From Anas platyrhynchos (lineage: Eukaryota > Chordata > Aves > Anseriformes > Anatidae): a DNA stretch of 64,000 bases. The DNA is taken from NCBI RefSeq assembly GCF_047663525.1, contig NC_092606.1:4834501-4898500 (forward strand), given 5' to 3'. The position numbers and the translations under genes are program-made. Below are positions 2,608-48,300 of the stretch, one piece after another. Within the stretch, counting starts at the first letter, position 1; the number at the start of each line of letters is the position of its first letter. The notes under the pieces are model-generated. The model saw only the letters and a program-made list of their open reading frames with translations, searched no databases and was not told the DNA's origin.

Positions 2608-2613
2608 AATAAA
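2608..2613 (+). terminator. NUFIP2: Internal AATAAA, possible proximal poly(A) site of NUFIP2
   Basis: AATAAA occurs about 1.3 kb into the 3'UTR. No strong GT-rich downstream element follows, so use is uncertain. Confidence 0.35.
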
Positions 2614-3746: not shown

Positions 3747-3777
<31 letters not shown>

Positions 3778-6550: not shown

Positions 6551-6558
6551 TGTAAATA
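6551..6558 (+). promoter_or_regulatory. Pumilio response element-like TGTAAATA
   Basis: An exact match to the UGUANAUA Pumilio consensus inside the NUFIP2 3'UTR, in an AT-rich stretch. The motif is short and could occur by chance in about 9 kb. Confidence 0.35.
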
Positions 6559-8470: not shown

Positions 8471-8476
8471 AATAAA
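8471..8476 (+). terminator. NUFIP2: AATAAA poly(A) signal, possible intermediate NUFIP2 end
   Basis: AATAAA is followed within 40 bp by a T/GT-rich stretch (tttaatttgtgtctc), a reasonable cleavage context. Confidence 0.5.
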
Positions 8477-8680
8477 GCTATGCACATGTTTTGAAAGTTT
8501 AATTTGTGTCTCATTACCAGAAGTGACTTATCTGCCCTCTTTTGCATTCCTGTGCTGTCATTGCCTACATTATCTTCACCATCTCGGAGGGTATGATGTA
8601 AGGTGACAGTTCTTTGCTGACAGCTGTAGCAGAAAACTGGCGCTTCTTGATTTTTTAGTAGCCTCTCTCTCCTTTGCTTT

Positions 8681-8732
8681 CTCTGTCTCTCTCTCTCTCT
8701 CTCTGTATATCTATATAAATATATATATTATT
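8681..8732. repeat. (CT)n plus (TA)n microsatellite
   Basis: A run of CT dinucleotides to 8704 passes into TATAT/ATATA repeats to about 8730. Simple sequence in the NUFIP2 3'UTR. Confidence 0.8.
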
Positions 8733-23248: not shown

Positions 23249-24340
23249 GCAGGCGGCCGTGCCGTGAGCAGCGCCCCCAGCAGCACCCTGCCGCGGGGGC
23301 GAGCGCGCCCCGAGCCCCCCTCCACCATGTTCAACCTGATGAAGAAGGACAAAGAGAAGGATGGGGCGCGGAAGGAGAAGAAGGAAAAGAAGGAGAAGAA
23401 GGAGCGGATGTCGGCGGCCGAGCTCAAGAGCCTGGAGGAGATGAGCATGCGCAGGGGCTTCTTCAACCTCAACCGCGCCTCCAAGCGGGACTCCAAGGCG
23501 CGCCTGGAGATCTCCAACCCCATCCCCATCAAGGTGGCCAGCGGCTCCGACCTGCACCTCACCGACATCGACTCCGACAGCAACCGGGGCAGCGTCATCT
23601 TGGACTCGGGCCACCTGAGCACGGCCAGCTCCAGCGACGACCTCAAGGTGGACGACGCCAACTTCAAGGGCTCGGTGCTGCAGCGGGCGGCCAAGTTCGG
23701 CTCGCTGGCCAAGCAGAACTCGCAGATGATCGTCAAACGCTTCTCCTTCTCGCAGAAGAGCCGGGACGAGAGCGCCTCGGAGACCTCCACCCCCTCTGAG
23801 CACTCGGCAGCCCCCTCCCCGCAGGTGGAGGTGCGCACGCTGGAGGCTCAGCTCGCCAAGCACGGGACGCCCCCGGGACACCCCCGTACCCCCCCTGCCA
23901 CCTCCTTTCGAGCCCGGGTGCCGGAGCTGGTGGGCAAGAGATTCCCCGCAGACCTGCGGCTGCCCGCCCTGGTGCCCCCGCAGCCCCCCGTGCCGCGGCA
24001 GCTGGAGCTGCAGAGGCGCAACACCGGCGATTTCGGCTTCTCCCTGCGCCGCACCACCATGCTGGACCGTGCCCCCGATGGGCAGGTGTACCGGCGCGTC
24101 GTGCACTTCGCCGAACCCGGTGCCGGCACCAAGGATTTGGCGCTGGGGCTAGTGCCGGGCGATCGGCTGGTGGAGATCAACGGGAGAAACGTGGAGAGCA
24201 AATCCCGGGATGAGATCGTGGAGATGATCCGGCAGTCGGGGGAGACGGTGCAGCTGAAGGTGCAGCCCATCCTGGAGCTGAGCGAGCTGAGCCGCTGCTG
24301 GCTGCGGGGCGGCGAGGGGACGCGCCGCGCCACCTGGGAT
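23249..24340 (+). CDS. MYO18A: MYO18A first coding exon: KE-rich segment and PDZ domain
   Basis: The acceptor ttccgcag ends at 23248. The ATG at 23327 (ccaccATG) opens 338 codons, beginning [13 protein letters not shown]. Residues about 5-26 are a Lys/Glu-rich block, the KE motif that binds actin and directs localisation. Residues about 226-316 form a PDZ domain with the carboxylate-binding loop GDFGFSL at 234-240 and the later [15 protein letters not shown] strand-helix. The exon ends in phase 0 (TGG GAT then gtgagt), joining to AKTEEQ at 33170. This start defines the alpha-type isoform. Confidence 0.95.
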
Positions 24341-27300
24341 GTGAGTAGCGGCGTCCCTGCCACCCGGCTGGTGCCCCCGGGTTTCTGCCGGCCGCCACCG
24401 TCCTCGCGGCGGGTGTTTGGGTTGGCACAGGGCGTGGGAAGCAGCGGGCGTTGCAGCTGCTCCCGGCTGCAGCAAGCGCAGGGAGGAGCGGGCGGCTGTG
24501 GCGAGGATGCGGGGGCGATGCCTGCTGCGCTCCGGGAGGCAGGATGCTGCTGAGGAAGGAGTCTGCAGCTGGCTCGTGAGTTCATACTGGTGGGTTTTGG
24601 CCCCAAAATGCTCAACGTGAGGCTGGTTTTGGCCTTTCTCCTGCTGGAAGGGCTCTGGAAAGGCTCTCCTTTGGAAAGCCTGTGCGTTGACCCAGGTATA
24701 AGTGAAGGCAAAGCATCCGTGCCAGCGCTGGGACGCAGCACGATGCCTACCAACCCCAAAGCCCCCCGTGCCCACCTCCCCCTGCCTCTCCTCCCAGGGA
24801 GGAGTGAGGTTTGGCAGGGAAAGGAGCTCGGGGGGAAACTTGTGAAGCTTTGCAGGAGGGGAGTGATGAGATTCCCCTCCTGGCTGCAGGAGGGTACGGT
24901 GGGGGCGGCGCGGCGTGCAGTGCCATGGGGAGACGGAAAGTTTGCAGAGCCCGATGTGCGTGGCTGGTGCTGTATAAATAGAAACTTAATGGCTGCGTGA
25001 CCCACATCTTCCGCGTGTGCCGCTGGCTCCGCTGACCCTGCCGCGGGCTAACCATCACCCCGGCCAGCTTCCAGCTGGTTCCCTGGATGCTGAGACCCTG
25101 CAGAGCTGGGCCTGTCCCCACCGTGTCGCTGGTGGCCGTGGTGTGGGGAGGCTGCTCCTTGAGCTCCCCAGGCAGGTGCCAGTGCTGCAGGGTGGAGCCT
25201 GCACCGAATCTGGGTGCTGGCTTTCCAGCAGCTCCTCCTTGGAGCCCTGCAGCGTGGCCAGCTCTGGAGAGCTGCTCAGGGCACTGCTGGCTCCAGGACA
25301 GCCCCAAGAGGCTTGGGCTGGGGGCTGAGGGGCACGGCTGCCTGCCTGTGGCTGCCACTCTTGCTGCAGCACGCCACTGTGGGTGCAGGTGCATGTTTGA
25401 TGTAAGCACGTAGGGGCTGGTGAGGTGCTTGTGGCACCAAAAACGCAGTGCTGGGGCTGGGGAGGGGAAGGAGGAAATGCCAGTGCCCTTGGAGCAGCCG
25501 GGGCTGCGGGGGAGATGCCGCAGCATATGGCCTCGTGGCGGGCGCTGGCAGCGGCTATCTGCTCCCACTGTGCATGGAGAGCACAAGGAGAGCTCTCTGC
25601 CTGCCCTCTCCCTGCCTCCCCCATGCCTCTCCGGGTTTCACTTTTCCAAAAAGCCACCAGAAAGCCGAGGGGAGGCTGTCAGGGCTCTGCGGTGGGCGCG
25701 CTGTGCTCGGTAACAGCGGTGCCCTTCCCTTTGTGCTGCGACCAGGCCGTGCCCGGCGCTGCGGGGTCAGTGCCTGCAAGGGGTTAAAGCATAAATCATA
25801 AATCATGGCAGGAGCAGTTCCTGGAAAGGAGCCGTCCCGTGTGCTGACCACAGACCGCTGCTTATCTTCAGGATATGCAGCGTAACGGGGCGGGCGCCTG
25901 GGCTGCAGCCAGCTCCCCACCGCCATCCCCAGCCCTGCCGGCCCCGTGCTCCCTGTCCATTTTCTCTGGCTCGGGGTAGGGGCACCTCTCCACATGAGCT
26001 CGTCCTGTGTCCTCGCTGGGGACCCTTGACCCTCAGCAGGGACACGGGGGGACACTCCATGGCTTTGCAGGTGGAGCTGGTGCCAGCGGCCGTGCCGGGG
26101 AGCTGGGGCAGGCAGCGGGTGCAGCCGGGGGCCGTGCAAGGTGCCGGCGCGCGCAGGGAGGCCCGGCTCTCCCCCAGGCCCAGCTAAGCTCCCTGGAATG
26201 CTTCTGGTCCTAATTTAAATAAAAATGATCCTTTTTGAAACAGGAAATTATAGGCATATTTTGGGCTGTTGCTCTGGGAGCCCCTCCCCGGCTGGAGCAG
26301 GGAAGGTGCCGGGGTTTAACCCCTCCACGGAGGGGCCCCCACCGAGCTGCCCCTGTCCCTCTGCCTGTCCCCGAGGTGGGGACACGTGCTGGAGCCAGGA
26401 GGCAGAGGGTGCGATGCTTGGGGTGCTTTGGGCAGCCCCAATCACTCTGTGAGGTTCGTGGGGTCTGGCTGGTGGCACAGCACTTTGATGGGGAGCGGGG
26501 GAAAGCCCCACCACATCCCAGCCGCGCTCCCGGCGCTGGGCAGCCGATCTGGCTGGGCTCCACGCTCCTATTTATTTATTTACCCTCGAAATTCCTCGGG
26601 CAGGGCCCAGGCATGCGCCGTCCGGCTCTGGTGGGGCAGAAATATTCCAGAAACGCGCCCGACCTCTCCAGCACTTCAGCCAGACCACAGGCATCCGGCG
26701 GCCGTGCCGGCGCGCCCCGCGTGCCCTGGTTGCCCTGCGCTGGCCTTTGCTCGCCCGCCGGCACCCGGGGCGCACGGCTGACGTGCCGTGGTGCAGCTGG
26801 CTGCCAGCTCCTTGCTGCGCCCAGTGTCCCACCGGGGTGCTGGGACATGGGTGGACGTGGCGGTGGGACGCGTGTGGTCCCCAAAGCGGAGTGGTGGGGA
26901 GGTGCTGGGGGCTGTGGGGTTGGGGCTGTGGGATTTGCAGTGCCCCGATGTGATTCCTCCTTCCAGCACCCTCCACCACGTCACGGCAGCAATGCCAAGG
27001 GCGTTTCAGTCACCTGTCCCTGCTCTGTGCCCCAAGAGAGGCAAGTGGGGAAGGTTTGGGGCTGCCCTGTGGGGTCAGAAGGGACGTGGCCTCAGGCAGG
27101 GCCGTGTGTGTGTGTCCCCAGGGTGGGCACACCTGGGATCCCCGCCGTGCCCGTGCCCCGTGCTCGCTGCCCTCACCACGCATCTCCTCGAGGTTTGGGG
27201 CAGTTTCTGTGGTGCTGCTGGTTCGCTCTGCTCCCTGCTGCCGGCCCCTTCCCGGCACGCACCGTGTGGGGAGGCCCCGGCCTCACTCGCCCTCGGTGCC

Positions 27301-30300
27301 GGTCCCGTGCCTCCGGGGAGACCTCGGTGCTCGGAGGGAGCTTTGCAGTGGACGCGGCCATACGGGGGCCGTGACACCGTGCTGGGGGTGGCTGGACTGG
27401 CGTGGTATAAGCAGGGTGCTGACCCTCATCCCTGTCCCACCGGCACGGTGACAGCCCCCCTGTGCCACCCCCCAGGGTGCACAGGGCTCTCCACCCCCGG
27501 TAGCATTTCGGGGGGCTGCCACGCTCTTGGCAAAGCAACGCTCTCCGCCGCTCACCCCCAGCAAGCAGCAGCGGGGCCACGGGGAGTGCGGGAGCACCCG
27601 ACCCCACTCCTCGGCACACAGATCCCGCTCCACAGGGGCGGGCAGTGGGACATGAGGGGGGGCCGGACGCTTCCCCCCCGCGGCGCCAGCCTGCCGCGGG
27701 CCCACATCACTTCCTCCAGCGGCGAAGAGGCCCCCGCTGCCCGAGCTTCCCCCCCGTGCGCCCTCCGCCTGCTGCGCGCGCCGCCGGGGCCCTCGCATTC
27801 CTCGGCTATTTTTAGGGTGGCCCTATCAGCCCAGCTGTCCCCGCGCCGCCGCGCGCCTCTCCCACCACCCTGAGCCCTGCTCGTCCCACCGGGAACCCCG
27901 CTGCCGGCCCCGCGGTAAGGTGGGGACCCCGGCACGGCTGGGGGGGACCCCGAGGGGGACGCGTGGGGGCCACCCCCTTGGTGGGATGGGAGCTGCCGTG
28001 GTGGCCGAGGGCTGCTTGTGGCAGGGGACCCTGGTGCTGGTGCCGTGCGGCATGGAGGGGAGGGCACCGGGGGCAGAGGATTTGGGGGCTCCGTGGGCAG
28101 GTTTGTGCCCAGACCCCCGTGTCTCGGTGGGTGGGAGGGGGCCTAGGTGCTGGGGATGGGGGGAGCAGGGTGCTGTGCCCCCAAACGGGTGGTTTGGGTG
28201 CTCCTCTGCGCCCTTTATTGTCAGGGGTGGTGCTTTGTGGACCCCCCATGGGCAGCGCAGGATTGGCCCCGCTGGGTTTCGGAGACCCCACTGGGTCCCT
28301 GCTTGGTCTGCCCGGCTGCTGGCACGGGGTCAGGCTCAGAATAGCCCCCCCGGCGTGCCGAGTGCGTGCCCAGGGCAGAAAATATCCCTTCCCTCACCCC
28401 GCAGCTGCTTACTGCAGCGGGCTGGCCCGGCATGGGGGGAAAATTGGGCACAGTGCTGCCGTATGAGCAAAGGGGCTTTTTTTGCACAATGAGTTCTGTG
28501 CCTGTCCCCGAGCGGTTCCTACAGGCTCCGTCTGCTCGGAGGCTGCATGGGGCTGGGTCAGCTCAGGGTCCTGAGACCCCCGAGCCTTCCCTCTCACCTC
28601 TCCCTCTCTCCCCCAGCCAGGGCTGCGGCTCCATGAGACATCGCCATGGCCTTCTCATCCCGCTTTGCGTTCTGGGAGCAGAAGGGAAGTCTTGCTCGCG
28701 TGTGCTCGCACCCCACGGTGCCCACCAGCTCCCCCCCTTTGCCCAGCACGTGTGCCGCATCCAGAGCAGCGCTCCCGGGGGGCCAAAATTCCCCCCTCCG
28801 GCACATCAAGTGGCCCTCGAGCTGCCCTCGTGCCACGCTGAGCAAACAGGCAGCCGCCCCACACCCCGTCACTGCATGGCTGCGGCCACGAATGCACCCA
28901 CTAACACACTAACCACCTGGCTGGTGCCTCCCCTAACACGGTGTGAACCCCCTCATGCTCGACATCGCCACCCAGGACACCCCAAATTGGCAGTGCTGAG
29001 CCCAGAGAGCCCAGAGAGCCGAGCTGGTGCCACCTCCGTGCGCCGTGCCGCCAGGGTGGCGGCGGGCGGGATCGCTTTCCCCCCCGCGCACCTTGCCTGT
29101 TGCTCAGCGCTGTGTTTAGCTCAGCTGTCAGAGCTAAGTTGAGCAACGTGCGAAAAGCCAGAAGCCCGCGCGGGGAGGAGCGAAGGGGCTTTATTTACCA
29201 GCTCGCTCACCAGCTGCCAACGCAGCCCCTCCTGCTGCAGGGAGCGGGGCTGCGCCACGTTTTGGGGTTTGCGGGGCGCGCCTCGGAGCTTCGCCCCCTT
29301 TTCTCAGCTGGTGCCGTCCTCGGGCTGGACCGAGGCCTCGTGCTCAGCAGCGGGCTGCAAATTTGGGCTCTTTCACCTGCTCACACAAAGGCTTCCTCCC
29401 CCCGAAGCACGGAGGGCGCCGGGCTGCGTGCCTTTCCCCATGGTGCTGCCGGAGCAGGCGGCCGGCACCGAGCCCACCGGGTCGCCGCGTCCCCCCGCGG
29501 CGGCTGAAACTCGCCCCTCTTGTTTGTCTGACCCTCAGGTTAAGGACGAGGACAAAGCCTTAGCTGTGAAAAGACCCGGGAAGGAGGACGGGGCTGTAAG
29601 TGCTGCAGGGCACGGGGATGGGGGCTCTGTGCCAGGATGGGGCTCGCCCTTGGCTGCGGTGTGGTGGCACCTCCTGAGAGGGTCGTGGGCTCAGCGTCCC
29701 CCCTCCTGGAGCTGGTGTAGGGCAGCGTGCGGGGTTCGGGTGGTTTTGGTGGTGGTGGGAGCTGGCACCTAGCCGCAGGGGTGCCCGGCTGTAGGTCACA
29801 GCAATTTTTGACCCTCTGGCTCACCAGGACTCGTCCCTGTCCTGCAGAGCCCAGCAGGACAGAGGCTCGGTGCTTGCTCTGAGTGACCGCAGGGAGCTGT
29901 AGGATGGTTCAGGGAGGGGACTGGATGTCTGGATGTCTCCGACACGCATCCTATGGTGCCTGAAATCTGGCCAGGAGCCGTGCTGGGACCCCAGGCACCA
30001 GCCCAAGCTGCCCAGCACAGCCACATCCCGCAGCACAGGGGTTCAGAGTGGGCACAGCACCGTCAGACCTCCTCTAACCCACCCCTATCTTTGTGGCTGC
30101 AGCCAGAGAGCCCGAGCGCCGCGAAGGATGCGGCACCCGCACCCCCAAAACCTGAGCCCCCGAAGAGCCCCGAACCGCCCCCGGGGACAGGGAAGAGCCC
30201 GGAGCCGGTGCTGAACGGGGCCGCCAACGGGCCCGAGGGTCCCGCAGCGGGCACCGAGGCGCAGGGGGACGACGGGCAGGGCCTGTCCCGCCGCAGGGTG

Positions 30301-33300
30301 GTGCGGGTGGTGCGCAAGGTGGTGCGCAAAGTCCTGCCGGGGGAGGATGCCGGCGGTGCCAGGGAGCCGGCGCGAGACGTCAAGTCTCCCGAGCCCGTGC
30401 CACCCCCCAGAAAAGAGGAGCCAGGTCCCCCTGCGCCCCCACCACCGCCCCCCGCTGTGCCGGCCGCCCCCGCCAAGCCGGAGCCCAAAGATGAGATCTC
30501 AGCGGGGCTCAAAACCCTCATGGCCAAGGGCAAAACCAAAGAGCACCGCCCGCGGCTCCGGCTGGGAGACAGGCGAGAGGAGAAGTCCCCCGGGCCCTCG
30601 GGAGGCAAAGGAGCCTCTGCACCAGGCTCCCCACCTGCTGCGGGGGACACAAAGCCATCTGTGTCCCCGGGTGCCAAAGCCAAGCCGGAGCCTCTGGCGC
30701 AGCCTTCGGGAGGCAAAGCGGAGCCGCCAAAGGCACCCGCCCCCAAGCCCACCGCCCTGGAGAGGCACAAGGTACCGCTGTGTGCACGGCTCTAACCCGG
30801 CGTGGGTGTGCGGCACGACCCGCAGGGACGCCTCGTCCCGCACGGCGGAGCATGGTGTGAGCTCACCAGCATGGTTTGCAGTGGTTTTGGGGTGTTTTTG
30901 GGGTGTGTGGTGCCGGGCGGGGGTCACTTTTTGGTGCGGCCGGGTGGGTGATGGCCACCGCATCACGCTGCCCCTTGTCTCCCCACCCTGCTCGTGTGGA
31001 GAAGAAGCAGCAGCCCGGCGAGAAGCGACAGACCCCCGCGAAAACCACCCTGGGACCCCCCCAGCAGGTGCGTGGGAGCAGGGACCCGGGATTTGTGGTG
31101 CCAGGGGCCTGCCAGGGCTGTCCAGGGCAGTGCTGGGTGCCTGCGGGTGCCCCAGCACAGGTGCAGGTGGGCAGGGCGCTGTAGGGTCTGCGCAAGGGAG
31201 GTGCCCTGCGTGGTGTCCGTGGGCTTCAGGGCCAAAAAAAAGCACCCGTGATGTCCCCCGTGCCGGCGACGTGCCGGTGCCAGCCAGCCCGCTGCTAACG
31301 GTGCTCTGCCTCCAGGCTGCCCCCGGCCCCGCTCCCCAGCTGAGCCCGTCGGAAGAGGCGCAGCGCCGGCTGGAGAGGATCTTCACGGCTTCTGTAATTC
31401 GGGGAGGGGGGTGGGAATTTGGTGATTGTGCGTGGCCCGGTGCCCGGTGCTGGATGGGGACGCTGCCCCGTCCACGCCGTGTGCTCTCCCTTGGTGTTTG
31501 CACCGCCGCTTGTGGCCGCCAGCCCCGTGGCCCCGCTCTGGGTGCCGCTGGCTTCTGGGTTTGGTGATCGCTGCCCCGAGCAACGTGCGTGGCCGTGGGG
31601 AGCTGCGGTGCCCGCAGCGCCGTGCCATGTCCCTGTGTCGGTGTCCCCGCTGCAGCCCGAGCACGGCTGTGCCAGCTGGGGCGATGTCTTGGGGGGTTTT
31701 GGCCATGCCGGGGCCCCGTGGGGTGTCGCGGTGCTGTTGCTGCTCTCTGCCTCTTACCCCTCTTTTCTTTCTCTCCTCCTCCCTCGCTGCTGTCAGCTGG
31801 ACCCCGCAGCCTCCGCCCCGGCACCCAGCCAGGTACCGTACCCCTGTCCTCAGGAGCTCTCTGCTTCCACTGGCAACCTCCCGCTGTCCTCTGTCTGCCG
31901 CTGGGCTGGTGTCTGCGCCCGCGCCTCGTGCTGGAGCGTAAGGCTTTCCCCACCCAGGGCTGCTGCAGAGAGTGGCCAGGGTGGCCCTGCGTCTTCATCG
32001 CGCTCCCTCGGTCACAGCAAGCCGAGCCAGCAGGGCACGGCCGGGGCTGGGTGCCTCTCCCCGGGCTCACTTGTTGCAGCTCCGGGCTCCCCGTGGCCGT
32101 GCTGGGGCACGCGGTGGAGAGCCAGGCACCCCGGCTGCTGTCAGTGGAGGTGGCAGGAGGACGGTGGCTCTCAGCCTGGCTGGGGAGGGCAGGGGCTTCC
32201 AGCGGGCAGGGAAAGGGCAGAGCCAGGCTGAAGGGCCGGTGAGCATCAGGGAGAGGTGGAGGAGGGGGGACAGTGCCCTGGTTCCCCGCGTGTCCCTGCG
32301 CTGGCACTCGCTGGGCATGCACCAGAGTATCCCAGGCGCATGGCACAGCCACCTCCAGCCCCGGGGGCTGTGTCCTCACCCCCAACCTGCGCTGGGAGCT
32401 TGGCCACCCAGCCTCATGGCCACCTTCCCAGCTCCGTGCATGTCCAGCACTGTGCTGGAGCTGCTGCTGTGCTGGCAGAGCTGTCCCAGCTGCGGTGTCC
32501 GCGTGGCCGGGGGCTCCAAGGTGGCCGCGCTTCGCCGCACGCCTCCGCTCGCTTCCCCCACCGCTTCCCGTGCTCGCTGCGGGGCAGAGCGTGGCCCTTC
32601 TCGCCCTCACGCCCCATCTCTCGGCCTCGATAGGGACAAGTGGACGATGTCCTGGCAGCCCCCTTTGGCCCCGTCCCTGCTGCAGCTCAGGTTTGGCTCC
32701 GGGGCTCGCCCTGCTCGCGGGTAGCGGGGACGTCCCCCACGTGCCGGCTGTGCCAGCCCGACCTTACCCATCCCCGTGGGACTGTGCCACTGCTGTGCTG
32801 TGTCCTGTGTCCCTGCGTCATGTTCCCACGGCATGTCCTGTGTCCCTGCAGCATGTCCTGCGTCCCCACAGCACGCCACGTGTCCCTGTGTCCCAGCACG
32901 GCTACACGAGTGGCACGGGGGTGCCGTGGGTGCCGGGGCTGCAGTTCGGGAGCACAGCCAGGGTTGTGTGTGGTGACTGCATCCCAGGGTCATTGTGGCT
33001 TTGTGTCTTCCCCCGGCTGTGTCAGGGACAGGGGGGCTCTGCAGCTCCAAACCCTCTGGGGTCCCCGGGACAGCAGACAAGTTGGGGACACGTTTCGGGA
33101 GGGCTCAGGGCTCATGGAAGGTGGCATGGCGCCACGCTCCCTCCAGCCCCACGTCCCCCTGTCTCACAGGCCAAGACAGAGGAGCAGATAGCTGCCGAGG
33201 AGGCTTGGTATGAGACCGACAAAGTGTGGCTGGTGCACAAGGATGGCTTCTCCTTGGGTGAGTTGGGGTCAGGCCAGGCCGTGGGGGTGCCCGGCACGGC

Positions 33301-36300
33301 CCCGCTGAGCCCCGTGTGCCCTCGCAGGCAGCCAGCTGCGGCCGGAGGAGGCCAGCGCCCTGCCCGAGGGCAAGGTGAAGGTGAAGCTGGACCACGACGG
33401 AGCCGTCCTGGAGGTGGAGGAGGACGACGTGGAGAAGGTAGGGCCGCGGGATGGGGGGCCGCGGGGCGGTGGGGACCCCCGTTCCCCGCCTGACCCCCGG
33501 CCCCGCTCCCAGGCGAACCCTCCATCCTGCGACCGCGTGGAGGACCTGGCCAGCCTCCTCTACCTCAACGAGTCCAGCGTCCTGCACACGCTGCGGCAGC
33601 GCTACGGCGGCAACCTCATCCACACCTACGCCGGCCCCACCATGGTCGTCATCAACCCGCTGAGCTCCCCCTCCATGTACTCCGAGAAGGTGACACCGGG
33701 GTGGGGGGGACGGTGGCGCACGCTGGTGGCACCGGAGCTGTGTCACCCTTCAGAGGTGCTCCTGCAGGGCCGCAGGGTGCTGAGCGTCCCCCGTTTGTCC
33801 CCCCAGGTCATGCACATGTTCAAGGGGTGCCGCAGGGAGGACACGTCCCCGCACATCTACGCCGTGGCCCAGGCTGCGTACCGCAGCATGCTGATGAGCC
33901 GCCAGGACCAGGCGGTCGTGCTGCTGGGCGCCAGCGGCAGCGGCAAGACCACCAACTGCCAGCACCTCGTCCAGTACCTCGCCACCATCGCCGGCAGCAC
34001 CGGCAAGGTCTTCTCCGGTGAGTGCTCGCCTCGGGGCCCCCTGCCACCTCCTCACGCCCCTCGCTTCGCGGTCACGGTGCTGCTCTCTCACTCGTCTCGC
34101 CGCGTGCACGCCGCCGGCCACGCGCACCCCACCGCCCCGCTTGTTTCCTCGCAGCGGAGAAGTGGCAGGCTCTCTACACCGTCCTGGAGGCTTTTGGCAA
34201 TAGCAGCACCAGCATGAACGGCAACGCCACGCGCTTCTCCCAGATCATCTCCCTGGACTTCGACCAGGCTGGGCAGGTGGCGTCCGCCTCCGTACAGGTG
34301 AGGGGCCGGGGTGGCCCCCTCGGCGCAGGAGCCGGTCCGTCCCGAGGGCGTTTTCTCCTGCCAGCTCTCCTTTCTAACCCGCTCCTGCCAGCCAGGCCGT
34401 GTTCGCAGCCAAGCGTCGAGCTCGTGGCTTTGTTTGCAGCCAGTCGGGGTGATAACAGCAGCCCTTAAAATGCAACAGAGCCACTTCGTGCTCCAGTGCA
34501 CCTGCTGATCGAGCCCTGCGCCCCCAGGAGAGATGCTCAGGGTTTGCGTGGGTGTTTGCCTTACTGCAGCAGGGCCAGGAGACCTCCACGTCTCCTTGGG
34601 AGCCCAGGGAAAAGGATCCTGGGCTGGCAGCAAGGATGAGGCTGGGGCTGGGGGGTCTTGGTGGGAGCTTGGCCCTCGAGGATGGTTCCCAACCCCCCTG
34701 ACCTCTCCCAGACGCTGCTGCTGGAGAAGCTGCGTGTCGCCCGGCGCCCTGCCAACGAGGCCACCTTCAACGTCTTCTACTACCTGCTGGCCTGCCCCGA
34801 CAGCGCCCTGCGGTGAGCCTGGCCCCGGCACGGGGGTCTTGGGGGTCTCCCGGCACCTCGGGGACCAACCTGGGTGGTGTTTCCCCCAACAGGACTGAGC
34901 TCCACTTCAACCACCTGGCGGAGAACAACGTCTTCGGCATCGTGCCCCTCGCCAAGGTCCTGCCTGCTGCGGGGCTGGGCAGGGGGCTGCAGGGGGGTGG
35001 GGGCTTGGGGAAGGAGATGGGAGAGCCAGGGTGGCCCTGTCCCTGCGGGCAGGGGGACTTCTGCTGGTCCCCAGCCCCTCTGGGTGCTCGTGGCCTGGCC
35101 AGAGGCACCGGGAGCAGTCACCCTGTGCCAATGGCTCCCGTTGCTCTCCGCAGCCCGAGGAGAAGCAGAAGGCAGCCCAGCAGTTCAACAAGCTGCAGGC
35201 TGCCATGAAGGTGATGGGCATCTCCGGCGATGAGCAGAAAGCCTTCTGGCTCGTCCTGGGGGCCATTTGTCACCTGGGGGCTGCCGGAGCCACCAAAGGT
35301 AACGGGGCTGGGACGCGTTGATCAGCAGAGCTCAGGTCTGCTGGCTGGTCGGGGTCCAGATTGATGCTGGCACCTCTGCGCCTTGCAGACAGGCTCTAGG
35401 GGGGCTTTTGGGGTTGTGCAAGCTGACGGGCAGTGCTCTGGGTGCTCCGTGACACCTGGATTTGTCCCCTTGGTCGGGGCGAGCCGGGTAGCTCCCAGCC
35501 AGCAGGGATCAAACACCCCGGGCACCACCAGAGCGAGACCCTGGCACCGTCCCTGTCACATCAGGGAGTTTTGTGGCTGGGGACAAGGGAGCATGGGGGG
35601 CGCACACATGTCGTCCCCCCCACCTAACGCCGTTCCCTCCCCTGTCCTCCCACAGAGCCACTGGCAGATGGAGCTGGTAATTGGAGCCATGCAGGGCTCT
35701 GCTCCGGGCTTGGTGGTGGTCTGGGGGCTAAGAAGGGGCTTGGGGTGCTGCTGGTGTGCTGGGAGTAGCCCCGGGCTGGGCTCTGGTAGCCCTGGGGTTA
35801 CCTCTTGGCAACCCAGCACAGGAGTGCACCGTGGGCTCGCCCTGATGGCACTGGTTCACCTCTCCACTGCTGGGGGGCTCAGGGTGCCTCTGCAGCTGCT
35901 CTTCTCCCCGCTGGGGGTCTTGTGTTACCCCCGAGGTGCTGGAAGCCCCCTCTGCTGCCTGCCCTGGGCTCTGCATGCTCGCAGGAGGCTTGGATCGAGG
36001 GGTTCAGCAGCTTGGGGGAGGGAATCAAGATGGAAATGGGCAGAGAGCCCCATTTGTGCCACGTTTTGGAGCGGGTTTTGGGTGCTCGGCGGGCACAGCG
36101 TGCTCCCAGGGGCGCTTCGAGGCACTAGAGGGCAGCAGGGCCCCGCTGCAGCACCGCTGCAGGGACGCACGGCTGGTGCAGGAGCCTCTGCGAGGGGCTG
36201 GGGGATCCCCAAATCCTGCTCAGGGGGAGCATCCCCAAATCCTGCCTTGAGGGGGGGAGCATCCCAGCCCAAATCCTGCTCCCGGTGCCTTCCCTGCATC

Positions 36301-39300
36301 TCTGGGGATGCTCAGCACCAGCTCGGCCACCCCAGCCCCCTTTTTCCTGGGGCTCGATCTGGTGCCTGTGGTGCTTGCTGTGGGGCAGGGGCAGACCCCA
36401 CAGCGGGTCTTAGCATCTCACATCTCGCCGTGGCGGTGCTCAGGGGGTCGGGGGGGGGTTAGGAACCAGGTTCGGTGCATGTGGGGTTTTGGCAGGAGGG
36501 CGTCCCCGCGTCGCGTGCCCGCGCTGCCGCGTGCCGGTGTTGCTAACCCCTGTCTCTGTTCGCATGGTGCATGCTGCCCTTTTGCAATGCAGACGCCGAC
36601 GAAGGTAAAGTCCTGTTCTCCGCGCGGCTCTGGCTTCCCTGTCCCGTCCCATTCTCGTGTCCCCCCCTCCGTGTCCCCATTAACCCGCTCCCACCTCCCT
36701 TCCCCACCCTGTGTCCGTGTGTCCGTGTCCGGCAGCCGCGGTCTGTCCCTGTCAGAGCGGGGGGCAGTGATGGAGAGGGGCGTCCCCATCTCCCAGCATG
36801 GCTCAGCCTTGCAGGGAGGCGAAGCCACTTACCCCCCATCTCCTCGAATCGAGCCCCAAAATTTTCCTCTTGGTGCTGGCCACGTGCAAGCCCTGGGATC
36901 ACGCTGCGCCAGCCGTGCACAGCGTCCCCGCCTCGGGGTTGGCTTTTGTGTGCCACCCCTGTCCCCATCCCACCGTGGGGGACCCAGTGACCAGCCGGGG
37001 TGCACCAGGAGAGCCCCAAACGTGGGACAGCCGGCGCTGAGCCTCCTTTTTTCCCCCCTCAGCCGGGAGGAAGCAGTTTGCGCGGCACGAGTGGGCTCAG
37101 AAGGCCGCCTACCTGCTGGGCTGCAGCCTGGAGGAGCTCTCCTCCTCCATCTTCAAGCACCAGCCCAAGGGCACGCTGCAGCGCTCCACCTCCTTCCGAC
37201 AGGGCCCCGAGGAGCAGGGCATGGGCGACGGCACAGGTAGGGCGCGGGGAGGGGCGGGTGGCCCCCGGGGGGGACGCCTGGTTGGGGACACTCAGGGCGC
37301 AGCCGTCCCCTCCGCCAGGTCCCAAGCTGACGGCGCTGGAGTGCCTGGAGGGCATGGCCTCGGGATTGTACTCGGAGCTCTTCACCCTCCTCATCTCCCT
37401 CCTCAACAGGTACACGACGGGATTTGGGGTGGGGGGTGCCGGGGGAGGTCGGTCAGCACCCACCCACCCCGCTTGTGTCCCCCGCAGGGCGCTCAAGTCC
37501 AGCCAGCACTCAGTGTGCTCGGTGACGGTGGTGGACACCCCCGGGGCGCAGAACCCCGAGGTGGCGGGGCAGAGCCGCGGGGCCACCTTCGAGGAGCTGT
37601 GCCACAACTACGCCCAGGAGCGCCTGCAGCTCCTCTTCCACCAGCGCACCTTCGCCCAGGAGCTGGAGCGCTACAAGGAGGTAGCGGGGACGCCCCCGGG
37701 GGCACTGTCACCCCCTCCTCTCTCCTTTCTGCTCCAGCATCTCCTGTGACCCCCCCCCTGCTCCCCAAATTTCTTAACAAGTGGTCACTCAGGACCGGGT
37801 CCAACCCAATCAGCTCTGACACCGCGCTCTCTGCTTCAGGGGTATCCGGGGGGGTTCCCACCGCTGATGGTGCCGGCAAATGTGTCCTGGGGGGGGGCTG
37901 CTGCGGGTGGTGGGAGGGCGACGGTGGCCGCTGCTCCATCTCGGCACCACCTGGGTGCCCACGGGGACCCTTTTTGGTGTCCTGACCGCCCCCGGCACCT
38001 CTCCCTGGAGCAGCGGGGCGGTGGGACGCCCGGGAAACCCCCATCTCCTGTCTAGATCCGATTGAGACTAACGTACTGACCGGCCCGCGGGGGCCCTAAC
38101 GCTGATCTCCAGTCACACAGGCACTAATCGCTCCTCTGTCCGTCCTCTCCAGGAAAACATAGAGCTTGCACTGGCTGACACAGAGCCCGCTACCTGGGGC
38201 TCTGTAGCCACTGTAGACCAGCCCTCACACCAGGCACTGGTAAGCACCCACGGCGCTTCCTCGCGGCCTCCGTCCCGGCCGTGACCCAGCTCCTCTGTGG
38301 CCACCTCCGTCCCCAAAACCCGCTCCTGCAGCACGGACGAGGGCTGGGACAGCGGGGCTGGAGGCGGCTGCTGCTGCTCCTCCTTGTAGCCGAGCGGCTG
38401 CTGGCAGCCCCGCGATCCATTACGGCGGGTTATTGAGCATTAGGCGCGGCGATAGCATCGGCCGTGCTGCTTTGCTGTCCTTTTAGCGGTAATTATGGGG
38501 AAGGAAAGGTGATTTCCTAAGTGCTTGGCAATGAGAGCGTGACTGAGCGTGCGAGCAGCGGGCAGCCCTGGTGCATCCCCGGCACCGTGCTCCCCGGTGC
38601 CTCCGGGAGGGGAGGATGAGGGCAGGATGGCCCTGGGGCGATCCTTGGCATGCTCTGGTCCCGGGGTGCTTTGATCCCGAAGGTGCTTTGATCCCTGGGA
38701 TGCTCCGCTCTGCAGGGTGCACCCATCCTTGGGGTGCCCTGGTCCTTGGGGTGCTCCGTTCCCTGCTGGACGAGGCTTTCAGAGACTGAGTGTGGCTGCT
38801 GGCGCTGGCCCCACACCGGGTTTGATCCCAGGGGTGCCAGAGCGCAGCGTTTGGCTCGCCACCGAGCTTGGCGCGTTACGTTTGCCTCTTTCCCTGCCAG
38901 GTACCCATTAAGCAGGGGCCGTTTCGCGCGGCGCCGCTTTGCCGTGCTGCTGGCAGCAGAGGAGGTTGCATGCTCCCCGCGTCTCCCCCGGTCCCCCCCC
39001 CCCATCCCTGCCCACCTCCAGGTCCCGGTACCAACGCGGTGTCACCCACAGGTCCGCTCGCTGGCCCGCACCGACGAGGCGCGGGGGCTGCTGTGGCTGC
39101 TGGAGGAGGAGGCGCTGCAGCCGGGCGGCAGCGAGGACACCTTGCTGGAGCGGCTCTTCGCCTACTACGGTCCCCAGGAGGGGGGCAAGAAAGGTCTGGG
39201 GGTGCGACCGGCACCGCGTTGCTGCGCCGGCTGAGCTGGCTGCGGTGCCCGTGCCCAGCGGTGCCGTGTCTCCCCGCAGGGCACGACCCGCTGCTCCCCA

Positions 39301-42300
39301 GCGACAAGCCCCGGCACTTCTTCCTGGGCCACAGCTCGGGGACCAACTGGGTGGAGTACGATGCCACGGGCTGGCTCAACCACGTCAAGCACAACCCGGC
39401 CACCCAAAACGCCTCCGTCCTGCTGCAGGAGTCGCAGAAGTGAGTGGGGTCCCCCGGGCTTGGGGAAGGAGCTTGGGAAAGGGGTGATTTTGGGGGTGAC
39501 GTCCCCTCCGTGCCCCGCAGGAAGGTCATCAGCAGCCTGTTCGCGGGCCGGGGCGGGTCGGCGCTGGTGCTATCGGGTTCGGTGGCGGGGCTGGAGGGGG
39601 GCTCGCAGCTGGCCCTGCGCCGCGCCACCAGCATGCGCAAGACCTTCACCACCGGCGTGGCCGCCGTCAAAAAGAAGTCGCTGTGCATCCAGATCAAGCT
39701 GCAAGTGGTGAGTGGGGGGCCCTCAGGATGATTGGGGGGGTCCCAGCACCCTGCTTTGGCACAATGGCACGGGTGTGTGTCCCCGGGTCCGGCTGGGGCA
39801 CTGCCCTGTGTCACCTCTCCCCCGTCCCCGCAGGATGCCCTCATCGACAGCATCAAGAAGTCCAAGCTGCACTTCGTGCACTGCTTCCTGCCCAAGGCGG
39901 CGGGGGGCGGCGGGGACCCCCGGGGGCTGCCGTGCCGGCGGGTGAGCGGCAGCGAGCTGGAGCTGCCGGCCGAGCACTGCGAGGCTGCGGGGCTGATGCA
40001 GCTCGACGTGCCCCTGCTGCGCGCCCAGCTCCGCGGCTCCCGCCTGCTGGACGCCCTCCGCATGTACCGCCAAGGTGAGCCCCCCCCAGTCCAAAATTCG
40101 TGTCCGATCTTACCACCCACGGGCGTGGCAGGAGGGGAGCAAATCCCCCGTCTGCAGCGCGGGGCCCCACGGGGAACCCCTTTGGCACGCGTCCTCGCGC
40201 AGAGCCCGGCTGCTGCCAGCTTTTCCCGTCCCGGGGGGGCTGGCCCCGCTCCCCCCGCGGGGCTGTTGTCACTTCGGGGCTCGGTGCCGGGGACAGGCAT
40301 GGCCTTACTTGGGTGTCTGCGCCGGTGCTGCCCGGCTGCTGGCAGCGATCCCACTGGCAGCCGGCCCTGATCCCGACGGGGAGGGGGGCTCCGGGTCGCG
40401 CTCAGCCAAGTGCTGGGGGATGCGGCCGCCGAGCCCGGGTTTAGGGCCTCGGGGCCAGACCCTTCCTGCAGCCTTTGGAAATCGATGCTGGGCGCACACC
40501 TCCCCGCAGCGATGAACATGACCCCCCCCCGGCTGTGGAGGGGTCAGCCTCTCCATCAGCACCCCCCTCGTTAATTAAGATGGGGAGGCTCGGCAATTAA
40601 CTGCGGCTCAGGACGGACCCGTAGCGGGGCCCGCCTGCTTGCACGGGTGACACACGTGTCCCTGCTCTCCCCTGGGGCAGCAATCTGGCTGCTTTCACCC
40701 CACATCTTGGCTGAAATTATTAAACAACAAGGCCAAGGAAAACCTCCAGCAGCCGTCCTGGGTGGCCCCGTTGAATCTCCCAAAAGACAGGGGAGGGGGC
40801 AGCGTGCGTGCGGGGGCACGGGGCTGTCCCCGGCCGTCCCCCAGGCATCCTGGCTGCCCCATGGCCCCCCTATCCTCTGCTCCCCCCCAGGCTACCCCGA
40901 CCACATGGTGTTCGCCGAGTTCAGGCGGCGTTTCGACGTCCTGGCCCCACACCTGACCAAGAAGCACGGGCGCAACTACATCGTGGTGGACGAGAAGCGG
41001 GTACGCGTGCCTGGCACCCCTTGGGGTCCTGTGCCCTGGGGTCCTGCACCCTGTTCCTGACCCCTGTCCCTCCCCACAGGCAGTGGAGGAGCTCCTGGAG
41101 TCGCTGGACCTGGAGAAGAGCAGCTACCACATGGGCTTGAGCCGGGTAGGACCCCGCTGGGGCCGTCCCTGCCCGCTGCAGGCTTCGGGGTCTGGCTGAG
41201 GGCAGGGTGGGCGCAGCGGCACAAGGGCAGCAGTGTGCACTCCCACCCACGCCATTCCTCACGCCTTGGGAATAAAAACCCCGAATAAAAACCCCACACA
41301 GGACGGGGCCAGGGGGCTGGGGAAGGGCGAGGACGTGGTGGGGACAAGGAGACACAAGTGGCACATCCCCACCGGCCAGCACAGCGGGATGGTGGCACCG
41401 CATCTCCCCCCTTTTCTTTTTTTCCCCCCTCCCGCAGGTGTTTTTCCGGGCGGGCTCGCTGGCCAGGCTGGAGGAGCAGCGGGACGCACAGACGAGCAGG
41501 AACATCACCCTGTTCCAGGCGGCGTGCAGGGGCTTCCTGGCACGGCAGCTCTTCAAGAAGAGGAAGGTTCGTGGCGCCTCTCCCCTCCCCGCTCCGCTGC
41601 ACAATTTCGCCTAAAATGGGCAGCACAGCTTTTCTGCCGCCGCCTGGCCCAGCGCCTCCTCCTCCCGCCTCTCTCTCCCCCTCCCCGGGAGCCGTGGGGA
41701 GCCGTGGGGAGCCGTGGGGCCAGCCCCGGGGCCGTCGGCTCCGTCCTGCCCCGCCGGGCTGCCGGGATGAAGCGGCCGTGCCAGCTCCTGCTTTTTATTA
41801 TTAAGGAGCGCGTAAAATAGGCACCGCAGCGGCGCCTCGCCCGCGGCGAGGTTAGCTCGTGCGGGTGCCGGAGGTAATCGGACAGCAGATAAGCCAGGAG
41901 CAATTAGCCCACATGCTAATGAAGGGGAGTGTGCCGGGGTGGTGGTGGGGGTGCTGAGCACCCGTGCGTCCTGCTGGGCCGGCGGCGCCCCGCGGCAGCC
42001 GTGCCGACGCCGTGTGCCCCGCGCAGATCCAGGATTTGGCCATCCGCTGCGTGCAGAAGAACATCAAGAAGAACAAGGGGGTGAAAGACTGGCCCTGGTG
42101 GAAGCTCTTCACCACCGTGCGGCCCCTCATCGAGGTGCAGCTCACCGAGGACCAGATCCGGGGCAAAGACGTGGGTACCGCTGCGCCGGGGGGGGGTGGG
42201 GATGGGGCAGGATGGGTCCGGGTGCACGTTGGAGACGGGCAGGGACCCTCAGTGGGGTGGGCTGCGGGACCCCACAGAGGGTGGGCTGCAGGGTCACCTC

Positions 42301-45300
42301 TGCCCCGTGCCCCCCAGCATGAATTGCTCCCTAATTTGCCAAGCAGCATGTCGTTAGCATCCCGAGAGCCCGGTTACAAGGCGTGGAGAATGGAAACGAA
42401 ACCGGGCACCGTGCGCGGGGGGCTCTGCACGGTGCAGGCAACCGGACACCGTGCCCCCCCGCCTGGCACCGGGCCGCTGCCGGCTCAGCTTTCACCTCGG
42501 GTGCCCGGGGTGGGGGCTCTGAGGTCCCCTCCTGTCCCCCCCAGCCTGCCTGCTGGCACCAGGGGACAAGGGAGAGAGCGATGCGCTCGCAGCTGGCAGG
42601 CAGCACGGAGCCCTGTGCTGGTTGGGCATCCCCCCAGGATCCCCTCCCTCTCCGCCTGGGCTGGGTGCCCTAAACCCTTTGGGTGCTAGGGGAGGAGGAG
42701 AGCAGCTTTGTTTGCTCCCACCCCTTTTCCCGGGGGGGGGTGCAGGGACCCCCCTCTCTGCCGGAGGCCAACTTTGCGTGGCCTCCGGGTGTTTCGGCAC
42801 CATTTATGGGGTTGGAGTTGGCCGCCGGAGCCAGCACAGGCTGGGGAAAGTCCCTGCCCAGCCCTTGGCAGGGGAGAGCCCCCGCACCGCCAGCGCCTCC
42901 CAGCCCCGGGGAGCCCCCACCCGGCCCTCCCCGTGCCGAGGGGGAGGGTGCTGGGGGTGCAGAGCATCGTGCCTGCCAGCCCCTTCCCTCGGCGCCTGCC
43001 CCCTCCCTCACCGCCCGCCGCTGTGTTGCAGGAAGAGATCCAGCAGCTCAAGAGCAAGCTCGAGAAGGTGGAGAAGGAGCGCAACGAGCTGCGGCTCAAC
43101 AGCGACCGCCTGGAGAGCAGGGTAGGTCCCAGCCGGCCCCGGGTGGGCTCAGCGCGTCCCCAAACCCCGGTGCCTGTCCCCCACCACCACCACCACCACC
43201 ACGTCCCCGCTGCCCCCAGATCACGGAGCTGACGTCGGAGCTGACGGACGAGCGCAACACAGGCGAGTCGGCCTCCCAGCTGCTGGACGCCGAGACGGCC
43301 GAGAGGCTCCGGGCCGAAAAGGAGATGAAGGACCTGCAGGTAACCCACCGAGCCTCTGCCCGGCCCCCCTGGCACCTCCCCGGGTCCCCGCGGGGCTCAC
43401 CGGGGCCGTGTCCCCTGGCAGGCCAAGTACGATGCCCTGAAGAAGCAGATGGAGTCCATGGAGATGGAGGTGATGGAAGCTCGGCTCATCCGGGCAGCCG
43501 AGCTCAACGGCGAGCTGGACGACGATGATTCAGGTACCGTGGCACAGCGGGCACCCAAAATCTCGGGTGCACCCTGGGATGCCCCTCCCGGAGTGTCGCC
43601 CACCACAGCCCCCTGGTGCCCCCCGCACAGGAGGCGAGTGGCGGCTGAAATATGAGCGGGCGGTGCGGGAGATCGACTTCACCAAGAAGCGGCTGCAGCA
43701 GGAGCTGGAGGACAAGCTGGAGGTGGAGCAGCAAAGCAAGAGGCAGCTGGAGAGGAGGGTGAGTGCAGCTCTGCCCCGAGACCCCCCCCCTCCCCAATTT
43801 TTTACCCCCTCCTGCCCACCCCACGGCCCTGAGCACCCTGCCTGCCCCTGCGCGCAGCTGGCGGACCTGCAGGCGGACAGCGAGGAGGGCCAGCGGGCGC
43901 TGCAGCAGCTGAAAAAGAAGTGCCAGCGCCTGGCGTCCGAGCTGCAGGACACCAAGCTGCACCTGGAGGGCCAGCAGGGACGTAACCACGACCTGGAGAA
44001 GAAGCAGCGGAGGTGGGGTGGCGCGGGGACGGGGACGGGGTGGTGGCACCCCCCGCCGGGTGGCTCTGGGAGCCTCTCGCAGCGTGGTTTTACCATTTTA
44101 GCTGGGATTTGGGCACTTCACCAGCTCCCGCTTGGGCGAGGCGCTTCGCACGGGGAAGATGAGGCTCCCTTTTCCCTGGGTTGTGGTGTGGGGGGTGCTC
44201 GGGGCTGGGGAGCCCCTTCCCCACGTGGGGGACCCCGTTGTCCCCCCAAGGGTCCGGGGCTGAGCGAGCCCCCGGTGGGGCTGTGCCCTGTGGCTCTGCT
44301 CCGCGCCCGCTCTCTTCCCGTCTCCTCTCCCAGCCCCAAAGTTTGCTAACGTTATTAAGCAGCAGGGACGCTTTCATCTCATTATGGTAATGATCACACA
44401 CACAAATACAGCGAGAGAATCCAATCTAATTAATTTCAATTTCCGCGGATTGGAGTCTGTGTTAATGCAGCTGTTTATTACCCAGCGCGAAGAAAAATGG
44501 GGATTAGCTGCCGGGGTGTGTAACACAGGTCACAAACCCGAGCGCAGGGTTATTTTCCAAGCCCCAGAGGCAGCGATTTCAGAGCAAACCCCTCTGATCC
44601 TCTCTTGGGGGCACTGGGAGGGGCTGAGCGCTGCCACGCCGGGGGCTCACGTCCCTGTGGCTACCCGGGGATGGGACCAGGGAGCCGAGGCACTGCAAGA
44701 GCCCCTCTCTGCTGAAGACCCCTGTGCGTTGTAGCCCCTCTGCGTCCTGCTTCAAGCAGCCGTCCCCACGTAGCCAAGCCCCCCCACCAGCAGCCACGGT
44801 CCCACCGGCACACGACAGCCCCATGGGGAGGCTGCTCGGGTGCGCACCGCAAGCGCCACGCTCCCGAGGAGCCGCTGGGTGAAGGTGCTGGGAGGATTTG
44901 CTCCGAGCATCTCCCTGCTGGAGACAAAAGGGCTCGTAACCAGCACGGCCAGCAGCGATGCCAGGTGGAGCAGGGCTGGTGGGGGCACGGGGCGCTGAGC
45001 TCGCCGCGCTCTCGCTGCGCAGATTCGACGGCGAGCTCTCGCAGGCGCACGAGGAGGCGCAGCGGGAGAGGCTGCAGCGGGAGAAGCTGAGCCGTGAGAA
45101 GGACGTGCTGGTGGCCGAGGTCTTCGGCCTCAAGCAGCTGCTGGAGGTGAGAGGCACCCGGCACCTCGCTGCTTGCCACACCGGGCACCCCCAAAATCTC
45201 CCCCGGCTCACCGCCGCTCCCTGTCCCCGCAGGATAAGGACTCAGACATCGCCGGGCTGACGCAGCGGGCAGAGGCGCTGGAGGCCGAGCTGCAGGACAT

Positions 45301-48300
45301 CTCCTGCCAGGAGTCGAAGGACGAGGCGTCCCTCGCCAAGGTGAAGAAGCAGCTGCGGGACCTGGAAGCCAAGGTGAAGGACCAGGAGGAGGAACTGGAC
45401 GAGCAGGCTGGCACCATCCAGATGCTGGAGCAGGTACGGCGGGGAGGGGCGAGGGCTCGGCCGCCCCGCGTGCGCGTGGGTTTCTGGGCGGGGTGGTTTC
45501 GTGCAGGGCTGTCATTACCTGGGCCGGGCTTGCCCGGGGAGCGGAGGCGACCGCCCTCACCCCGGCGTCAGGCCAGGCTACGGCTGCGGACGCAGCTCCC
45601 GGCCCTTGGCGCCGCCACCATGGCACGGCAGGTCACCACGGGGCGGGCGGCGCGGTCGGCCGAGGAGCAGGGGGTTTACTGGGTGAGCAGGGCAGCGGCG
45701 TGGGGGCGTCCCCGTGTCCCCTTGGATCTTACCACCCCCCCTTCTCTCCCCTTTTTTCCAGGCCAAGCTGCGGCTCGAGATGGAGATGGAGCGGCTGCGG
45801 CAGACCCACGCCAAGGAGGTGGAGAGCCGCGACGAGGAGGTGGAGGAGATTCGGCAGTCGTGCCAGAAGAAGGTAGGGCTTGGCCACGGCCCCGCTGCCC
45901 AAAGGAGAGGCCGGGATGCGTCCCGTGCCCCAGCTGGGTGCCGGGGAGGTGCTGGGGACACCATCACACAACGCCCGGCTCCCACGCGCCCGCTGCCCGG
46001 CTCCAGCAGGCTTGGCAGGTCCAACCGGTCCCGCTCACACGCCGGGCACCTCGCCGCCCATTGCGCAAATGGGTGCTCACCGTGTCCAGCCCGAGGGGTC
46101 ACCCCCTGTCCCCGGGGCACGTGGCACACATTTGGGGGGTTGTCCCCATCCCTGTCCCCCCTGACCGGGCTCCCCGGGCTCTCCGCAGCTGAAGCAGATG
46201 GAGGTGCAGCTGGAGGAGGAGTACGAGGACAAGCAGAAGGTGCTGAGAGAGAAGCGGGAGCTGGAGAGCAAATTATCGGCCGTCAGCGACCAGGTAGGGC
46301 ATGGGGACACCCAGGTGCCGTGGGGGGGTCACCACAGCACGGTGCCTGGTACGGCTTTTTCCCTCTGCAGGCCAACCAGAGGGACTTCGAGACGGAGAAG
46401 CGCCTGCGCCGCGACCTGAAGAGGACGAAGGCGCTGCTGGCTGACGCACAGATCATGCTGGACCACCTGAAAAACAACGCGCCCAGCAAGAGGGAGATCG
46501 CCCAGCTCAAGAACCAGGTGGGTCCGGGCTGGCCGCCCCCACAGCGTGTCCCCCGAGGGGCTGGGGGTGTCCCCGTGCCCCCAGGCCAGGTGCTGAGCCG
46601 TGTCCCCGCAGCTCGAGGAGTCCGAGTTCACCTGCGCGGCCGCCGTCAAGGCCCGCAAGTCCATGGAGGTGGAGATTGAAGACCTCCACCTTCAGATCGA
46701 TGACCTCTCCAAAGCCAAGGCAGCCGTAAGTGATTTCGGGGTGCGCCGTGCCGCGGTGGGGACGTGCCCCCAGGGGGAGACCCCTTCCCCATGCCAGCAG
46801 AATGAGCCTACACCCTCTGGGGTTTTTTTTGGGGAGTCCCTGCTGCGTTCCAGGGTGGGTGCCCCCTCCCCAGGGGCTCGGCCAGGTGTAGGGGGGCAGG
46901 AGGCACAGCGGGAGGTGCTGTTTTTTCCCCCCAGCTGGAAGAGCAGCTGAGCAGGCTGCAGCGGGAGAAGAACGAGGTGCAGAGTCGCCTGGAGGAGGAC
47001 CAGGAGGACATGAACGAGCTGATGAAGAAGCACAAGGCGGCGGTGGCCCAGGTGAGGGGGAACCCCTGCACCCCATAACGTCCAGCCCCTGCCGGCCCCA
47101 CTAACAGCCCGGCTCGTCCCGCAGGCATCCCGGGACCTGGCGCAGATGAATGACCTCCAGGCACAGCTGGAGGAGGTCAACAAGGAGAAGCAGGAGCTGC
47201 AGGAGAAGGTGAGGAGCAAAGCTGGAGGTGGGGGGACCCAGAAACACGCTGCTTGCCCCATGGGACCCCGCAACATCCCGGGGACTATCCCAGGGGGTCC
47301 CCGGATCTCTCCGTGGGGATGGCGGGGGGGGGAAGGCGCAGGGGGAGCTGGCACTGAGGCTGCCTGCCCGCAGCTACAAGCGCTGCAGAGCCAGCTGGAG
47401 TTCCTCGAGCAGTCCATGGTGGACAAGTCGCTGGTGAGCCGGCAGGAGGCCAAGATCCGCGAGCTGGAGACCAGGCTGGAGTTCGAGCGGACGCAAGTCA
47501 AGCGCCTGGAGGTAGGCGCAGGCACCCCCCGAACAGGCTCAGGCTGGGTCCGACACCCCCCCAGTCCCCACAGAACCACCACGGCGAGGTGACCAAGGCA
47601 CGAAGCAGCCCAGGGGTCCCCTGGGGACATCCCCGGTGTCCCCATCCCCGGACCCCCCACACCGCCACGGTGCCGCCAGCCCCACCGGGGAAGCTCCCGC
47701 GGGCGCTGATAACCGTAATCCGCCACCCGGCCCGGCAAAGTGCTGCTATTTCCCTGCATCGACTAAGTGAAATTATAGACTCTCCCGGCCCTGCTAAACG
47801 CAGCCTGCTTTATATTCTGCCTCTGCAGCTCTCTGCCGAGGGAGCTGAGCAGCTTAGCTCTCCTCTTAATATTTTCCTAGCTGTTATTTCCCTTCCCGCT
47901 CTCTCTGCCGGGGCCATAAATATGCAGCGGCTGGCTCAGCGGCTGCTGGAGAATGGAAGCTATTTTTTCCCTACATTACATGCTGTAATTACTTCACACA
48001 AAGTTAAATCTATTTTTCCAATTCACCAAAGCCCTTGCAATTGTTCTACCCCTTCCCTGGCCTGGGGGGGTGTGTGTGTGTGGGGGGGGGGGTTCTCCCC
48101 GGTGATGCCGCTCTTCCTCCCGCCTCCTTCCCTCATGTAAATTCATGGGGACGGGATCTGGACGAGCCCTCGGGGAGGGTGGCGCAGCACCCGTAACCAC
48201 AGCAGGTTGGGGGGGGATTGATGCGATTTGGGGGTGCCTGGGGGGGACCAGGGCATCGGGGTGCCCCCAAAGCCACACGGATGCCCCGCAGAGCCTGGCC

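Follow-up and report, generated by a model that had tools for sequence, protein, structure and literature searches.

An alternative N-terminus of MYO18A in Anas platyrhynchos whose start exon carries a probable GG splice donor also present in MYO18B

MYO18A lies on the forward strand of a 64,000-nucleotide stretch of Anas platyrhynchos DNA (NCBI RefSeq assembly GCF_047663525.1, contig NC_092606.1, positions 4,834,501 to 4,898,500), here called the window, in which positions are counted from the first letter. Between the exon encoding the PDZ domain and the motor exons of this gene, positions 28617-32690 hold seven exons, every join of which is in phase 0, and together they supply the 334 codons of a PDZ-less, proline-rich head (67 of its 334 residues are proline) that reads in frame into the motor exon at 33170 (AKTEEQ...). 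An initial annotation made from the letters of the window had proposed this chain of a start exon and six further exons, and both its coordinates and its joining to 33170 are borne out, confirming that the seven exons encode an alternative N-terminus of MYO18A. The favored interpretation, with a probability of roughly 0.78, is that they form the striated-muscle (gamma) N-terminus of the protein and that their start exon is joined by a GG-AG intron shared with the paralog MYO18B.

When the head is joined to the 39 body exons and to the serine-rich last exon, the resulting gamma model comprises 47 exons and a single frame of 2,401 residues with a lone stop at its end. The ends of the body exons were placed by eye at GT-AG boundaries, and the single terminal stop of the joined frame serves as the check on this placement. 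A Pfam search of the 334-residue head returned no family at E values up to 1. The start codon stands in the context GCCATGG, and an out-of-frame ATG occurs at 28632, 14 bases ahead of it.

The start exon differs from every other exon of the model in its donor site. Its junction reads CAGAAG/GGAAGT, with GG instead of GT, whereas GT is present at the remaining 45 of the 46 donors, and the intron would run from this GG to an AG acceptor. The context AAG/GGAAGT is U2-like, and the energy of the duplex with U1, which is -6.5 at this site (rank 34 of 46 donors, tied with three others) and -8.4 at the GG site of MYO18B, falls in both cases within the range of the GT donors of the gene. Scored by weight matrix, the GG site reaches 2.72, a value that rests on a pseudo-frequency and carries little meaning. 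A GT located four bases into the intron was considered as the donor and rejected; its use would lead to a stop after two further residues in MYO18A and would lose the IREEDQ frame in MYO18B.

MYO18B of the same genome provides the closest comparison. A protein search of the genome gave two matches. One is MYO18A; the other, on the minus strand of contig C16, is identified as MYO18B by its start, the large exon preceding the motor, and the motor. The start exon of this gene (MAISSRLALWEQK) also ends in AAG/GGAAGT after the residues WEQK, and its exon 2 (IREEDQ...) follows an AG acceptor in phase 0; the intron occupies the same position in both genes, after codon 13. The two start exons are identical at 33 of 39 bases. 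The start-exon peptide of MYO18A and the following VKDEDK make up 19 residues, of which 12 are identical in MYO18B, a score met by 0 of 500 shuffles, and this length matches the published 19-residue stretch over which mouse gamma and Myo18B are highly similar (PMC11112018). Within the start-exon introns, all four bases from +3 to +6 match between the two genes, as they do in 2 of 22 controls. The controls come from the 39 MYO18A body exon ends, 22 of which have a clear partner among the exon ends of MYO18B, agreeing in position and phase. They were picked by hand under a rule that required a score exceeding that of the runner-up by 5 or more, collinear order and GT in both genes, so that GT is built into the set; the other 17 rows were dropped. 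Extended conservation past the donor was rejected, as 5 of 8 matches at +7 to +14 are equaled by 3 of the 22 controls and 7 of 14 at +7 to +20 by 5 of the 22. A search for a PDZ exon in 130 kb around MYO18B, of which 27 kb precede the start, gave no match at E values up to 1, while a motor exon used as a yardstick was found.

The reading that best suits these shared features is that MYO18A and MYO18B inherited the GG-AG intron from a common ancestor, and both the N-terminal start and the GG splice site probably predate the separation of the two genes. The initial annotation had pointed to the resemblance between the first residues and the MYO18B N-terminus, which holds in this genome, and had concluded more broadly that the architecture predates the MYO18A/B split. 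This broader claim stands for the 19 codons, the phase-0 intron and the GG donor, and more weakly for the C-terminal exon, but not for the proline-rich head as a whole: when residues 14-334 were compared with residues 14-342 of MYO18B, 430 of 500 shuffles scored as high. Judged from the sequences, an ancestry common to both genes can be claimed only for the opening 19 codons and the intron that interrupts them. Three features go beyond what that annotation contained: the non-GT donor, the C-terminal exon of gamma (52052-53240) and the candidate promoter region (27796-27914).

The last exons offer a further point of contact between the two genes. Entry into the last exon is in phase 2 in gamma, and also in MYO18B if its acceptor is the TTTAG before position 79514 of the retrieved reverse strand, and both proteins have the motif V-S-(I/L)-M-x-KYL close to the C-terminus (VDSLMMKYL in gamma, VSSIMRKYL in MYO18B). 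The likeness of the whole exon is matched by 25 of 500 shuffles and that of the last 40 residues by 3 of 500; it is possible that the muscle form shares both of its ends with MYO18B by descent, although the statistics are weak. Overall, MYO18B and gamma have in common the start peptide, the phase-0 intron after codon 13, the GG donor and the end motif V-S-M-KYL, whereas the N-terminal extension of MYO18B consists of three exons and its remainder shows no measurable sequence relationship to the gamma head.

Upstream of the start exon, positions 27796-27914 represent a candidate internal muscle promoter, which is probable, and an untranslated exon, which is likely. Four consensus sites (M-CAT, MEF2, GATA and E-box) fit in 42 bp, 0.8 kb upstream of the start exon, and the MEF2 sequence CTATTTTTAG is found once within the window. 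When 27617-28616 was shuffled 2000 times, a MEF2 and an M-CAT site never came to lie within 50 bp of each other; when the whole window was shuffled 100 times, this happened once. The untranslated first exon is likely because a good donor at 27914 is combined with an acceptor at the start exon; according to a weight matrix, the 27914 site is the top of the 47 GT sites in 27700-28610. A shared MEF2/M-CAT promoter at MYO18B was rejected, since the sites listed for 5.6 kb at that gene hold no pair within 50 bp; a MEF2 and an M-CAT site separated by 60 bp lie some 4.3 kb ahead of its start exon. A sigma-70 scan was also set aside, as it concerns a bacterial motif without bearing on this locus.

Taken as a mechanism, transcripts would start downstream of the PDZ exon from an internal promoter, for which the MEF2/M-CAT cluster (27796-27837) is the probable candidate, and the short untranslated exon would be spliced onto the start exon, which would in turn be joined to exon 2 through the removal of the non-canonical GG-AG intron. 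The predicted product combines the 334-residue proline-rich head with the MYO18A motor and coiled coil and the serine-rich tail. Both genes would have received from their ancestor, and kept, the opening 19 codons, the phase-0 intron that follows codon 13, and the GG donor.

Several observations weigh against this account. GG donors have a very low frequency, and U1 pairing as strong as that of the GG site is seen in 57 of 1367 background 11-mers. Two in-phase GT sites with low positive scores lie downstream in MYO18A, at 28699 and 28717. The likeness of the two introns past +6 is unexceptional, and the head beyond residue 13 is not alignable to MYO18B. The promoter cluster was spotted after the fact, and the sites listed for this 5.6 kb stretch at MYO18B include no MEF2/M-CAT pair within 50 bp. 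The evidence comes from one genome, in which the splicing and expression of the gamma exons are deduced from DNA sequence alone.

The two downstream GT sites would allow a start exon that is used but ends later, 5 or 11 residues after WEQK, in which case the GG would be no splice site. Both sites are in phase 0 and precede the in-frame stop at 28910, yet their scores of 1.2 and 1.14 are low against the median of 7.8 for the donors of the gene, and a later donor would place extra residues between WEQK and VKDEDK, whereas mouse gamma and Myo18B are reported to be alike over a single stretch of 19 N-terminal residues (PMC11112018). The GGAAGT is, moreover, identical in both paralogs, and a later end of the exon is considered unlikely. 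A further proposal makes the GG an assembly base error, or the result of a recent mutation by which this individual or species lost a working start exon. What remains of the donor is indeed near consensus (AAG/G-AAGT), as a single change would leave it; however, the corresponding junction of MYO18B, which lies on a different contig, carries GG too, and because two identical independent changes are improbable, such an origin deserves very little credence.

It could also be supposed that the proline-rich exons are used without the start exon, with transcripts from the upstream exon skipping 28617-28684 and translation beginning at a methionine in exon 3 (residue 172 of the model). The well-scoring donor at 27914, the GG donor of the start exon itself and the in-frame ATG in exon 3 are compatible with this scheme, which is nevertheless highly unlikely: three out-of-frame ATGs, located in exons 2-3, precede the ATG of exon 3, and the retention of the start exon in both paralogs would be left unexplained. 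The least probable proposal is that no product is made and that the exons are relics or are open merely by chance. Open frames are frequent in this GC-rich stretch (at the length of exon 3, 239 of 2000 dinucleotide shuffles of that exon and 202 of 2163 same-length background frames are open), and an open reading frame was therefore rejected as evidence by itself. The support for the exon chain comes instead from the 19-residue homology to MYO18B and the continuous 47-exon frame, and the seven phase-0 exons, the GT donors at six of the seven and the fit in length to mouse gamma likewise argue against relics. The interpretation of the seven exons as the gamma N-terminus, with a GG-AG first intron common to MYO18A and MYO18B, is accordingly preferred.

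The positions of these features are collected in Table 1. In the body of the gene, a 12-nucleotide microexon at 36593-36604 is part of the gamma model, and a 21-nucleotide stretch with AG and GT ends that lies before it (35656-35676) could be an optional in-frame exon. A cassette-like exon of 45 nucleotides (49352-49396) is located ahead of the tail exons, and the frame is kept whether it is included or skipped; a QKI-controlled Myo18a cassette exon is described in mouse (PMC5062968). The window also contains, on the minus strand, a beta/gamma-crystallin exon within 11543-12265 (PF00030, E 2.5e-11) and pieces of a flavin adenine dinucleotide-dependent oxidoreductase within 56626-58468 (PF01266, E 9.7e-10 and 1.3e-06), which we take to be CRYBA1 and PIPOX, respectively. 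The GC content is 44-53% at 1-10000 and 58-71% elsewhere in the window.

Table 1. Features of the MYO18A locus, in window positions.
Feature	Position	Strand	Basis
Alpha-form start exon (KE-rich, PDZ), searched stretch, donor position approximate	23327-24430	+	PF00595 PDZ, E 7.8e-10, residues 226-313
Candidate muscle promoter: M-CAT 27796, MEF2 CTATTTTTAG 27806, GATA (minus strand) 27823, E-box 27832	27796-27837	+	consensus sites
Candidate untranslated first exon, ends GCG/GTAAGG, 5' end approximate	27838-27914	+	donor score; no ATG in 27816-27914
Gamma start exon; ATG 28646	28617-28684	+	acceptor ccccag at 28616; 33/39 coding bases common with MYO18B
Non-canonical donor GGAAGT	28685-28690	+	same six bases after WEQK in MYO18B
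Gamma exon 2, begins VKDEDK	29539-29595	+	AG acceptor, GT donor, phase 0; VKDEDK aligned to MYO18B IREEDQ
Gamma exon 3, proline-rich, 223 codons	30103-30771	+	phase-0 frame
Gamma exon 4	31002-31067	+	phase-0 frame
Gamma exon 5	31316-31393	+	phase-0 frame; weak donor GTAATT
Gamma exon 6	31797-31832	+	phase-0 frame
Gamma exon 7	32634-32690	+	phase-0 frame
39 body exons (motor, neck, coiled coil)	33170-51163	+	joined frame, one terminal stop
Gamma last exon, serine-rich, ends in stop	52052-53240	+	in frame after 51163; end motif like MYO18B
Alternative last exon, ends RAAETPA and stop	54101-54239	+	in frame after 51163

A first intron of this kind would tie the muscle form of MYO18A to MYO18B through gene structure, beyond the 19 residues, and two muscle myosin genes may lose their true start exon when gene-finding or read-mapping programs accept GT-AG introns only. 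An off-GT splice site retained by two paralogs would also make a good natural test of donor reading. It may be speculated, tentatively, that the ancestral GG donor has been kept since the duplication because it is functional, the removal of the first intron being tied to the splicing setting of muscle and the sarcomeric N-terminus being made only there; if this were true, the two paralogs would offer a naturally replicated experiment on how a GG donor is recognized by the spliceosome.

The exon chain corresponds to the gamma isoform described in the literature; both this isoform and its 19-residue likeness to Myo18B are already known for mouse. Mouse Myo18A gamma, to which the initial annotation had pointed as a heart isoform with such termini, is a PDZ-less protein of 2,409 residues with a polyproline N-terminal extension and a serine-rich C-terminal extension that is found at the A-band of striated muscle (PMC11112018, PMC7900500). 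Its role in the sarcomere is published for mouse, as is the negligible adenosine triphosphatase activity of this myosin class. The upstream block is excluded in the mouse primitive heart tube (PMC11285346), patient variants of MYO18B are reported (PMC11234750), and MYO18B is described as confined to vertebrates and as having probably arisen by duplication of MYO18A (PMC7900500). Compared with the published description, the protein predicted here is like mouse gamma in its PDZ-less, proline-rich head, its MYO18B-like first 19 residues and its serine-rich tail, and it is nearly equal in length (2,401 versus 2,409 residues; PMC7900500); unlike mouse gamma, it has a head longer by about 27 residues, with the P-loop at residue 500 versus 473 in the mouse model. 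The available portions of PMC11112018 and PMC7900500 contain no discussion of the start-exon donor of mouse gamma.

Splice sites of the GG-AG type have been described in several other settings. The accessible part of the open-licence literature on non-canonical splicing of MYO18A/MYO18B and on GG-AG introns contains no statement of a donor shared by both class 18 genes, the available text of a 2007 myosin survey (PMC2375034) has nothing on AT-AC, and the words "MYO18" and "myosin" are absent from the main text of a human RNA survey (PMC4176328). A few GG-AG introns of U12 type have been reported (PMC2831892). The Scipio study mentions a GG-AG splice site in a vertebrate myosin class that is unnamed in its available portion (PMC2442105); the dinucleotides are the same as in MYO18A and both cases concern a vertebrate myosin, and the class in question is presumably class 18. 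The human RNA survey describes a GG-AG intron in CPSF3 that is used only in testis, together with conserved GA-AG introns in FGFR genes (PMC4176328), which likewise have a non-GT donor in an otherwise U2-like context. The CPSF3 and FGFR introns are proven by RNA, whereas the intron of MYO18A and MYO18B, two paralogs that share its donor, is predicted here from DNA.

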